In this document: positions 12,114 through 16,698 of the stretch, one piece after another | Layout of the letters: each line of letters opens with the position of its first letter | Position numbering within the stretch: position 1 is the stretch's first letter | DNA from: Chitinophagaceae bacterium | GTDB taxonomy: Bacteria > Bacteroidota > Bacteroidia > Chitinophagales > Chitinophagaceae | Direction of reading: 5' to 3' | DNA length: 34,422 nt | Assembly: GCA_947372235.1 (NCBI GenBank) | Contig: CANBSW010000033.1 | Span: 1-34,422, forward strand | Position numbers and translations under genes: made by a program | The notes under the pieces: model-generated | Databases searched by the model: none | Seen by the model: only the letters and a program-made list of their open reading frames with translations | What the model was told of the DNA's origin: nothing

Positions 12114-12174
12114 ATGGAACAGTTAACAACGTCTACTTCTTTCTAAAACAGGATTCTAAGCTTTTTATAAAAAC

Positions 12175-12220
12175 CAAATAGCTCCGGTAAATACCGGGGC
12201 TATTTGATCTTTTTGTTTTT
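12175..12220 (-). terminator. Intrinsic terminator downstream of amt (copy 1)
   Basis: CAAATAGCTCCGGTA-AA-TACCGGGGCTATTTG (15-bp stem, one wobble) with T-runs on both strands. Confidence 0.85.
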
Positions 12221-12233
12221 CTCATGTTCGGTA

Positions 12234-13832
12234 TTAGTCTACATAACCATGTACACCTGTTTCAGGTATATCAAGGCCAGCAATTTCATCAGCTTCTTTA
12301 CTTCTCAACGGAATTACTTTGTTCAGAATTTTAAAGAAGAAGTACATAACTACGAATACGAATACAATACATGTCAATGTACCAATACACTGTGCGAAGA
12401 ATTGTTTTGTATCACCATAAAACAATCCTTTTACAGTTCCGGGAACACCGTTCCAGCCATCGCCATAAGATCCGTCTGCAAAAAGGCCCAGGGAAAGTAC
12501 ACCCCATGCACCATTTACGCCATGTACCGCAACTGCACCAACGGGATCATCGATTTTCAATTTTGTATCGATAAAATTGTAAGCTAATATTACAAGGATA
12601 CCTGCAATCGCACCGATAAGTACAGCAGATAAGGAAGTAACAAAAGCACAAGGTGCGGTAATTGCAACAAGACCTGCCAGCATACCGTTAGCGATCATTC
12701 CAGGATCTGCTTTTCCTCCTTTGATATACATAAAGAATAAAGCAGAAAGAGCACCTGCACCACCAGCCAGCATTGTATTAACGGCAACTACACTGATTCT
12801 GAGGTCACCACCAGCCAATGTTGATCCAGGGTTAAAACCAAACCAACCAAAAGCAAGAATGAAAGTACCAATGATAGCCATTGGGATATTATGACCTGGG
12901 ATTGTATTTACCGTTCCATCTTTACCATATTTACCATAACGTGGTCCGATTACGATTGCCCCCGCTAATGCCGCTACACCACCTACCATGTGAACAACAG
13001 ATGATCCCGCAAAATCAACATGACCATGACCTAAGCCAAAGTTAGATCCCAGCATAGCTAACCATCCACCACCCCATACCCAGTTACCAAACAAAGGGTA
13101 TACAAACATTGAGATAAAGAAGCCATAAACAACGAACGATTTAAGCGTCCATCTCTCAGCCATTGATCCTGTTGGGATAGTAGCTGTTGTATCCATGAAA
13201 ACCATTTGGAAAAGGAATAAGGTAAATACACCTACATCATAATATTTGCTGCTAAGGAAATAACCTACAGTACCGGCAATTCCAAAATCATGACCAAATA
13301 AATGGATCACATATTCATGAGGGATCACACCGGCGGAACCTCCCAGATTAGCAACATTAAGTGCACCGCCAAACATAATGGCAAATCCACAGATCCAGAA
13401 ACCGATCATTCCTATGGCATAGATCAGGAAGTTCATACACATCGTATGTGCAACATTCTTCTTTTGTGTAAATCCTGTTTCAACCATTGCAAAACCGGCT
13501 TGCATAAACATTACAAGAAAACCGGTAATCAGTGTCCACATGATGTTTATTGCGATCTTGTTATGACCATCTGCATTGCCAATTGACTGTACTGCAGTTG
13601 CCAGTTTGTTTACACTGGATCCAACTTGAGAAAGTGTTGTGTCTTTTGCTTTTGCTACCGAATCGATCACTTTTGCTGCGGTAGTGTCTATATCACTGAT
13701 GGTTCCTGTTTTTGCACCGGTAGGATCCTGTGCCATAGAACCAACGGGTACTGCCATTACAAGTAAAAGTACCATCATCATTGCGGCAATAAAATGCCTC
13801 CCGATCTTAGTCTTGCTAATTAATTGTACCAT
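12234..13832 (-). CDS. amt: Ammonium transporter with signal peptide and extended N-terminus
   Basis: MQAGFAMVETGFTQKKN, FAGSSVVHMVGG, FGWFGFNPGSTLAGGDLRI, DDPVGAVAVHGVNGAWG: Amt/Rh family with both His-containing motifs. Confidence 0.94.
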   Translation of the reverse strand: MVQLISKTKIGRHFIAAMMMVLLLVMAVPVGSMAQDPTGAKTGTISDIDTTAAKVIDSVAKAKDTTLSQVGSSVNKLATAVQSIGNADGHNKIAINIMWTLITGFLVMFMQAGFAMVETGFTQKKNVAHTMCMNFLIYAIGMIGFWICGFAIMFGGALNVANLGGSAGVIPHEYVIHLFGHDFGIAGTVGYFLSSKYYDVGVFTLFLFQMVFMDTTATIPTGSMAERWTLKSFVVYGFFISMFVYPLFGNWVWGGGWLAMLGSNFGLGHGHVDFAGSSVVHMVGGVAALAGAIVIGPRYGKYGKDGTVNTIPGHNIPMAIIGTFILAFGWFGFNPGSTLAGGDLRISVVAVNTMLAGGAGALSALFFMYIKGGKADPGMIANGMLAGLVAITAPCAFVTSLSAVLIGAIAGILVILAYNFIDTKLKIDDPVGAVAVHGVNGAWGVLSLGLFADGSYGDGWNGVPGTVKGLFYGDTKQFFAQCIGTLTCIVFVFVVMYFFFKILNKVIPLRSKEADEIAGLDIPETGVHGYVD

Positions 13833-13881: not shown

Positions 13882-14916
13882 CTAAAATTTATATACGGCT
13901 GCCAAAATAAAGCTGAGTGTACTTTTGGTAGTTCCACCATTTTTAGAGAAGATAGCTCCGCTGCCACTATCCAATCTCAGTTCAGGGATAATGGTCAGAT
14001 TATCCACTTTAGCGTTGGCAGAAAGCGTGGTTGCAAAAATATTTTTTGAACCAGCGATCAACGGATTGATCTTTCTGTCGTCAAAATAGTCTGCACGCAG
14101 TGTCCAACCCAATGTTTTAGCAGGATCATAATTCAGATAAAGTGCATGACTTTTCCAGCTTGAGTTGGCTGTACCCTGTTTAGTAGATTGCAGATTGCCA
14201 TCATATACAAGGTTAACTTTATCACTCAGTGTTCCCTGAACAACCAGGTTGAAATGGGTTAAACCGGTACCGCCCTGAAAGTTTACATACGCTTTCAGTT
14301 TATCATTGGCAGTTCCTGTGCTGAATTGTGCGATCAGTACTTTTACACTGTTTGGAGCACTTACATAATCCGTTGGATTGGCAATACCCAGCATCATAGC
14401 ACTTTTTCCTCCTAACGAGAAATCAGCTTTGATACCTGTGTGGAAGAATGGTCCGTAAGAGAACCCGTATGACATACTGTAGTTTCTATTAGCATATGCA
14501 TCTAACAGTTCCCAACCAATATGAGTGGCCCATTTACCGATAGTGAATTTCACTTTGTCGGAAGGGGCGTAGCTAACATATGCCTGTTTAATAGCAGTAA
14601 GGGTTGTTCCTACATCATTGTAAGAAAACTCCTGGGCTCTTTTGCCAAAACCAACATCTGCAGTTGCAGAAACTTTGCCAAAACTGTGGTCAACCTTTAG
14701 GGAAGCCATTCCCAATTCAAAAGAATTGTTTGAGTTTGTAAAACTTGTGAGGTTGTTGGTTGCCCCTGTAGGTGCATTAAAGTTAAAACGATAATAAGCA
14801 TCTACAGAACCGGTAAATGTTGTGGTTGCGGTTGGTTTTTTAGTGGAATCTGTTTGGGCATTAACAGATACGAGTGCTAAAATTCCAATAAATCCTGCGG
14901 AAATTTTCTTTAACAT
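13882..14916 (-). CDS. Outer membrane beta-barrel protein (porin-like)
   Basis: Signal peptide MLKKISAGFIGILALVSVNAQ; beta-barrel strand alternation; C-terminal aromatic (AAVYKF). Supplied ORF starts at 14940 with TTG; the ATG at 14916 begins the signal peptide directly. Confidence 0.8.
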   Translation of the reverse strand: MLKKISAGFIGILALVSVNAQTDSTKKPTATTTFTGSVDAYYRFNFNAPTGATNNLTSFTNSNNSFELGMASLKVDHSFGKVSATADVGFGKRAQEFSYNDVGTTLTAIKQAYVSYAPSDKVKFTIGKWATHIGWELLDAYANRNYSMSYGFSYGPFFHTGIKADFSLGGKSAMMLGIANPTDYVSAPNSVKVLIAQFSTGTANDKLKAYVNFQGGTGLTHFNLVVQGTLSDKVNLVYDGNLQSTKQGTANSSWKSHALYLNYDPAKTLGWTLRADYFDDRKINPLIAGSKNIFATTLSANAKVDNLTIIPELRLDSGSGAIFSKNGGTTKSTLSFILAAVYKF

Positions 14917-14943
14917 TGCAATGGGTTTTATGATTAACAAATG

Positions 14944-15042
14944 GGTACAGCCTTTAAACTTGGTCAGAAGTTTATCAAATGGCTGTACCTTATTTTTTTA
15001 CGTAAGGGTGCAAAGGCATAACTGTAACCTGGTCAGAGGTTT
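14944..15042 (-). promoter_or_regulatory. Candidate structured 5' leader with two same-loop hairpins
   Basis: Minus strand: GGTACAGCC ATTTGAT AAACTT-CTGACC-AAGTTT AAA GGCTGTACC (14944-14989) and AACCT-CTGACC-AGGTT (15026-15041). Confidence 0.5.
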
Positions 15043-15138: not shown

Positions 15139-16485
15139 TTACGCATGTTGTGGCGTGCGACCGTATTTCTCATCGTGTTGCGATGCATCAAGCCCCATTT
15201 CTTCTTCTTCTTCAGAAACCCTCAGTGGCAGTATTGCACCAATGAATTTGAAGATGAGAAAAGAAACAACAAAACTGTATGTAACTACTATCAGTAAAGC
15301 TTTTACCTGAATAAAAAAGAAAGAAGCGTTTCCATAGAATAATCCATCGGCACCGGCACTGTTCACAGATTTGGTAGCAAAAATCCCTGTCATTAACATA
15401 CCAACCATACCACCTAAACCATGGCAAGGGAATACATCCAGCGTATCATCCAATGTTGATTTTCCTTTGTAATAAACAGCCAGGTTAGAAATGATGGCTG
15501 CAACAACGCCTATAAAAATACTTTGTGGAACTGCAACAAAGCCGGCGGCAGGTGTTATGGCTACAAGGCCAACAACGGCACCGATGCAGAATCCTAATAC
15601 AGAAGGTTTTTTCCCACGGATCACATCAAAGAACATCCAGGAAAGACCTGCAGCAGCTGCAGCTGTATTGGTTGTTCCGAAAGCAGATACTGCTAAGGAA
15701 TTTGCGCCTAATGCAGAACCTGCATTAAAACCAAACCAGCCAAACCAAAGTAAACCGGTACCGATCAGTACATAAGGAATATTAGCCGGCGGAATTTCTT
15801 TGCTTTCAATATGCACTTTGCGGCGTTTTAATACCAGTGCACCTGCCAATGCCGCACAACCTGCAGAAATATGTACAACCGTACCACCAGCAAAATCCAA
15901 AGCACCCATTTTAAACAGGAACCCTTCAGGATGCCATGTCCAGTGTGCAATAGGAGCATATACTAAAAGGCTAAATAAAGCGATGAATAAGATAAAAGCT
16001 GTGAACCGGATTCTTTCGGCTACCGCACCCACAACCAATCCGGGAGTAATGATAGCAAACATCAATTGAAACAAGGCGAACAAGGCTAATGGAATGGTTG
16101 GTGCCAGACTCCATGGAGCACCTGAGTTTACACCTTTAAAGAACAAATGTGTCATTGGGTTGCCAATAAAACCTCCGATAGTATCTCCAAAGCAAAGGCT
16201 GTATCCAACAAAAACCCATAATATACTCACAACTCCAGCCGCTACCACACTTTTGATCATGGTAGAAATTACATTCTTACGGTGTACCATTCCTCCGTAG
16301 AAAAAGGCCAAACCGGGTGTCATCAGGAAAACAAGTGCAGTGGCTACAATAATCCAGGCGATATCTGCGGCACTATATTTACCTCCGTCATTAAAATTAG
16401 GAAGTGAAGGAATAAATAAAGCGCCGATAGCTACGGCTACTAAAACTACAAAAGGGGCAAATTGTTTTACTGTTGATTTTGACAT
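15139..16485 (-). CDS. amt: Ammonium transporter (AmtB-like)
   Basis: MTPGLAFFYGGMVHRKNVISTM, FAGGTVVHISAGCAALAGALVL, GLLWFGWFGFNAGSALGAN, DVFPCHGLGGMVGMLMTGIFA. Confidence 0.96.
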   Translation of the reverse strand: MSKSTVKQFAPFVVLVAVAIGALFIPSLPNFNDGGKYSAADIAWIIVATALVFLMTPGLAFFYGGMVHRKNVISTMIKSVVAAGVVSILWVFVGYSLCFGDTIGGFIGNPMTHLFFKGVNSGAPWSLAPTIPLALFALFQLMFAIITPGLVVGAVAERIRFTAFILFIALFSLLVYAPIAHWTWHPEGFLFKMGALDFAGGTVVHISAGCAALAGALVLKRRKVHIESKEIPPANIPYVLIGTGLLWFGWFGFNAGSALGANSLAVSAFGTTNTAAAAAGLSWMFFDVIRGKKPSVLGFCIGAVVGLVAITPAAGFVAVPQSIFIGVVAAIISNLAVYYKGKSTLDDTLDVFPCHGLGGMVGMLMTGIFATKSVNSAGADGLFYGNASFFFIQVKALLIVVTYSFVVSFLIFKFIGAILPLRVSEEEEEMGLDASQHDEKYGRTPQHA

Positions 16486-16663: not shown

Positions 16664-16698
16664 AAAAAAGCCCAATTATAGATAATTGGGCTTTTTTT
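16664..16698 (-). terminator. Intrinsic terminator at the 3' end of gltD
   Basis: AAAAAAGCCCAATTA-TAGA-TAATTGGGCTTTTTT, bidirectional-type. Confidence 0.88.

Follow-up and report, generated by a model that had tools for sequence, protein, structure and literature searches.

The window analysed here is the whole stretch of 34,422 nucleotides of a Chitinophagaceae contig (CANBSW010000033.1). It encodes, on the minus strand, two ammonium transporters and an outer-membrane porin. The gap of 222 nt between the first transporter gene, amt1, and the porin gene contains two hairpins with the same CTGACC loop. The features of the locus are:

16664 to 16697, minus strand: strong intrinsic terminator between gltD and amt1 (AAAAAAGCCCAATTATCTATAATTGGGCTTTTTT), upstream border of the operon
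15139 to 16485, minus strand: amt1, ammonium transporter (Pfam PF00909)
15026 to 15041, minus strand: distal hairpin, AACCU-CUGACC-AGGUU, with the same hexaloop as the proximal hairpin on a different stem; lineage-specific
14990 to 15000, minus strand: A-rich tract directly 5' of the proximal hairpin, able to pair with a U-rich stretch 3' of the hairpin
14944 to 14989, minus strand: proximal hairpin, with outer stem GGUACAGCC/GGCUGUACC, asymmetric internal loop, inner stem AAACUU/AAGUUU and hexaloop CUGACC
14917 to 14943, minus strand: linker and porin translation initiation region, 27 nt, of near-constant length in relatives
13882 to 14916, minus strand: BBP2 outer-membrane porin gene (Pfam PF07642), ATG at 14916-14914
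12234 to 13832, minus strand: amt2, ammonium transporter (Pfam PF00909)
about 12168 to 12206, minus strand: terminator-like hairpin and T tract after amt2, read by eye, downstream border of the operon

Because a terminator precedes amt1 and a terminator-like hairpin follows amt2, the three genes amt1, porin and amt2 are probably expressed as a single predicted transcript. In 33 of the 100 loci described below, the hairpin starts at most 20 nt from the upstream stop codon, which leaves no space for a promoter in that gap.

The proximal hairpin consists of a 9-bp outer stem, whose arms lie 28 nt apart, and a 6-bp inner stem. Read along the minus strand, the 5' outer arm GGTACAGCC (14989-14981) is followed by ATTTGAT, by the inner stem AAACTT (14973-14968) and AAGTTT (14961-14956) around the loop CTGACC (14967-14962), and, after AAA, by the 3' outer arm GGCTGTACC (14952-14944). 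The preliminary description had placed the end of a 9-bp outer stem some tens of bases before a start codon, and it indeed ends 27 nt before the ATG of the porin. Both hairpins lie where that description had put them, at 14944-15042, except that 15042 is one base too far, since the distal hairpin spans 15041-15026. When folded alone, a 65-nt segment with the proximal hairpin reaches −19 kcal/mol, vs −8.1 ± 2.4 for shuffled sequences (z −4.6, 0/200). The whole spacer, folded as a 232-nt segment, gives a z of only −1.5, and the proof of the structure thus rests on the comparison across relatives. The minimum free energy fold of the window sequence shifts the pairing of the inner stem slightly; the alignment backs the 6-bp version.

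Related genomes carry the proximal hairpin in 100 loci, and nearly all of these belong to one bacterial family, which is probably Chitinophagaceae. A search at the DNA level of 61 genomes of the genus found the spacer in 20, with the similarity centred on the region from the proximal hairpin through the start of the porin. We built a first covariance model from 19 sequences and ran it without gene information on 299 genomes of the family: it matched 33 genomes, once in each. All 30 of the loci tested for their context had the match on the same strand, between amt1 and a BBP2 porin. A broader model matched 68 of 147 genomes of the genus. Such a search across relatives had been suggested in the preliminary description, and the conservation of loops and stems in orthologous leaders agrees with what was proposed there. 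There was no model match outside the family among 299 genomes of the order and 393 of the phylum, nor in four genomes from Niabella, Chitinophaga (two) and a Taibaiella metagenome-assembled genome (MAG). Further porins are preceded by divergent forms that score below the threshold and were recognised by eye; one of these porins belongs to a sister family (L208). A loose pattern scan of the whole collection returned nearly exclusively chance matches, and among 65 rescored loci only one was true: a Bacteroidetes MAG (L129), which has the element in an unchanged gene order.

The element is absent from some loci of the family, namely five sampled amt1-porin loci (L189, L190, L195, L198, L228) and six sampled porins in other gene settings. 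The spacers of two of them, L189 (upstream of the porin) and L228, hold an unrelated, terminator-like hairpin (AUAAAAGGGGAUUG..CAAUUCCCUUUUAU and GGGCCUUUUC..GAAAAGGCCC, respectively) and no conserved element. In the sister family f15 (L210, L211, L213, L217-L222), the spacers of 150-300 nt between an amt2-type gene and a BBP2 porin have a strong predicted structure: a hairpin lies 10-70 nt past the amt stop, with loops CGGCAA, CUGCAA, CUGUAA or UUGCAG, and is followed by an apparent long-range stem. These spacers have no match in Rfam and are too diverse to align. They possibly carry a separate structured RNA, as predicted from folding, at the equivalent place of the operon.

Within its own genome the element stands alone. 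No other YYTCTGACCARR site has a stem of more than four pairs, the total number of YYTCTGACCARR matches is not above that of a control pattern, and only the two sites in the window join a CUGACC loop with such a stem and position. We thus rejected the idea of a genome-wide regulon, since these two are the only hairpins of this kind in the genome.

We aligned 92 proximal sequences, 73 of them distinct; this alignment was fitted to the model and hence favours the structure. Among the 73 distinct sequences, standard pairs occupy 96.5% of the cells and double compensatory changes occur at 12 of the 15 pairs. In total, 115 cells show double changes, vs 24.7 ± 3.9 after shuffling (0/500), and sliding the partner by one column lowers the pairing from 96.5% to 44% or less. 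The first alignment, made with MAFFT from 19 sequences with a hand-written structure, had 97.3% of paired cells and 20 double-change cells vs 4.9. The end of the outer stem, GGUAC/GUACC, is nearly invariant, and the internal loop is variable. The apical loop is CUGACC in 56 of the 100 loci (45 of 58 within the genus); elsewhere it reads CUGAUC, CUGACAC, CUGGAAC, CUGGCA, CUGCGAA, UUGACG and more. Given this drift outside the genus, the recognition code may not be a single fixed one. The comparison across relatives shows the hairpin to be selected as an RNA, with the loop and the outer stem end constrained in sequence. The preliminary description had seen a selected RNA in the constant loops and compensated stems of two hairpins, and the same pattern now extends to 73 distinct hairpins of the proximal type and 27 of the distal type. 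A near-invariant pair of outer arms could also be expected of an element acting as DNA, either a palindrome bound by a regulator or a mobile repeat. We regard this as extremely improbable: the inner stem and the distal stem change in compensating fashion, which is a strong argument against it, and the element has a single copy per genome at a constant place in the operon, with arms 28 nt apart.

Two alternative pairings were considered and rejected. A pairing of GGUACAG with the loop, in which CUG-ACC equals the 3' arm minus a U, is lost in loop variants such as CUGCGAA or CUCGCAA. In the genus the inner 3' strand could also pair with the linker (GGUUU/AAACC), but this option is not kept elsewhere.

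The position of the hairpin is fixed relative to the porin. Its end lies 26.8 ± 1.8 nt from the AUG of the porin (24-31 nt in 94 of 97 loci), while the distance from the upstream stop codon ranges from 5 to 380 nt. In L200 there is no amt gene upstream of the porin (amt1 lies downstream), and the hairpin is kept, 30 nt before the AUG. Together, these observations indicate that the element is part of the porin leader and not of the 3' end of amt1. It combines compensatory base changes with a constant position before one gene family, the general marks of a cis-regulatory RNA. The linker has conserved A at −13 to −10 and at −6. In Flavobacterium johnsoniae, A at these positions promotes initiation, and the region from −20 to +20 tends to stay unpaired in translation (PMC6847099); the hairpin is placed just beyond this zone. 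One locus, L149, has an extra terminator-like hairpin and T tract (GTGAACTTTTAAGTTCAC..TTTTGATCTTTTTT) between amt1 and the conserved hairpin; the porin of this genome would accordingly have a promoter of its own.

The flanks of the hairpin raise the main rival explanation. On average over the 100 loci, 6.5 of the eight positions nearest to its 5' side are A, and a U-rich stretch follows the stem, so that the element resembles the intrinsic terminators or attenuators found between genes of an operon, with their A-tract, stem and partly U-rich tail. It might then halt some of the transcripts that arrive from amt1 or that start at a promoter of the porin's own, lowering the expression of porin and amt2, perhaps in a regulated manner. 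Several loci fit this scenario: 61 of 100 have at least five T in the first eight nucleotides past the stem, the A/U stem is perfectly extended in L196, L200 and L177, and the spacers of L189 and L228 hold unrelated terminator-like hairpins in place of the element. However, T directly follows the stem in only 36 of 100 loci, and TT in 4 of 100, and the U tail is weaker than in the two terminators bordering the amt operon. Termination would also work with a variable loop and at any distance from the AUG, whereas here the loop, the stem end and the distance to the start codon are constant. We therefore hold attenuation to be unlikely, even if it is the foremost competitor of the reading we prefer.

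A second explanation starts from the same A-rich single strand, which is conserved directly 5' of a stable hairpin and, in most loci, lies between cistrons. An RNase could cut in this tract and the hairpin could passively shield the 5' end of the porin-amt2 mRNA, raising the porin above amt1. Operon hairpins and the ompA leader are established cases of such differential stability. It leaves unexplained why the loop is constant in tandem hairpins with different stems and why GGUAC/GUACC is nearly invariant, and we find it quite improbable.

The distal hairpin is a partial match to the covariance model (17.8 bits) and is separated from the proximal one by 36 nt. We searched for its counterparts in the loci with a long spacer, i.e., more than 40 nt from the stop of amt1 to the proximal hairpin. 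Within the genus, 29 of the 34 such loci have a further hairpin upstream, its loop of the CUGACC type. Outside the genus most long-spacer loci lack a second hairpin, with L161, from another genus, as the sole exception, and most other genera have one hairpin only, the proximal. Thus, of the two-hairpin pattern initially described, the proximal part proved general and the distal part is limited to these 29 of 34 genomes of the genus and to a single case beyond it. The upstream hairpins with the loop CUGACC, 27 of them distinct, differ in their stems, as in AACGGTCAATAAACTT-CTGACC-AAGTTTATTGACCGTT (L139), CCGGAATACCGGGCCT-CTGACC-AGGTCCGGTATATCCC (L161) and ACCGTATGGCCGCCGG-CTGACC-CCGGCAGTCGTATGCT (L254). 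Pairwise identity is 0.93-1.0 in the loop columns, 0.73-0.86 at the closing pair and mostly 0.23-0.6 in the outer stem columns, and the four pairs nearest to the loop are formed in 25-27 of the 27. On this comparative evidence, the general element is the proximal hairpin and the distal one is a lineage-specific addition. The two hairpins are likewise separated in the other tandem loci. In L003 a long inverted repeat (AAGTGATAGGTAGTAAGTAATAAG..CTTATTACTTACCACTTATC) lies between them, and the separation is ~125 nt. We also considered a kissing interaction between the two loops and rejected it, since CUGACC lacks self-complementarity.

A pair of short hairpins that share one hexaloop, in the leader of nitrogen-related genes, recalls the targets of ANTAR proteins such as NasR, AmiR and EutV. 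There, A1 and G4 of the hexaloop are required, and about 5-12 nt separate the two hairpins (PMC3369931). In contrast, CUGACC has C1 and A4, the gap in the window is 36 nt, and the proximal hairpin stands alone in most genera, with the tandem hexaloop pair occurring in the window and in the 29 long-spacer loci of the genus. The preliminary description had set the element apart from ANTAR targets on account of its loop, and the spacing now separates them as well. A search for the ANTAR domain (PF03861) matched 0 of 31 genomes of relatives and was equally silent in 14 control genomes. The window has no match in Rfam at the gathering score, and the covariance models of the glnA RNA (glutamine riboswitch) and of the Downstream-peptide motif, which likewise act in cis at nitrogen genes, ammonium transporters among them, do not match here; these have a cyanobacterial multi-stem fold.

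Mini-ykkC, as it was formerly named, was eventually shown to be the guanidine-II riboswitch. It shares with our element small tandem hairpins with a loop more constant than the stems, and this likeness, together with the nearby nitrogen genes, would suit loops that bind a small metabolite directly. Its hairpins had been interpreted in 2010 as protein-binding (PMC2864571), which makes it a cautionary precedent. The loops differ (ACGR there vs CUGACC here), as do the genes and the logic of loop dimers: within CUGACC no dinucleotide is self-complementary, as loop-loop dimers like those of guanidine-II would need. In addition, the second hairpin is absent in most genera, the internal loop is unconserved, and the guanidine-II model of Rfam gave no match in three loci at E up to 1. 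A ligand sensor of this type is thus very improbable.

We somewhat favour, from sequence comparison, a cis-acting regulatory RNA in the BBP2 porin leader, whose loop would be read by a trans-acting factor that alters access to the porin start. The structured RNA would sit in the porin leader within the predicted amt1-porin-amt2 transcript, and the factor recognising the apical CUGACC loop would most likely be a protein. What stays constant is a small apical loop and the end of a helix, while the internal loop varies; this makes a protein a better candidate than a metabolite. Binding would alter the access of ribosomes to the porin start, possibly with closing of the A/U flanks as a step, and the output of the porin would thereby be set separately from that of amt1. 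In some lineages, the distal hairpin would provide a second binding site. Only the nearby genes suggest a nitrogen-responsive role; that the signal is perhaps nitrogen status is a guess, and the direction of control is likewise a matter of guessing. More tentatively, the CUGACC hairpins may be sites for a loop-recognising RNA-binding regulator (or a ligand) that keeps the synthesis of the outer-membrane porin in step with ammonium transport in one family of Bacteroidota. They would then represent a new, ANTAR-unrelated class of control by tandem hairpins, beside a start site that lacks Shine-Dalgarno pairing.

We found no earlier description of the element in the open-licence literature, and the comparative evidence marks the porin-leader hairpin as a previously undescribed candidate element controlling the porin. 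ANTAR systems of other phyla are the main known case of tandem hairpins that exert loop-specific control. If our reading is true, Bacteroidota would have a new RNA-control system, family-wide and single-site, with a fixed loop at a fixed distance from the start codon, and the 46-nt hairpin would be a simple bait for fishing out its regulator. The arrangement suggests that these bacteria apparently handle the porin as part of ammonium uptake.
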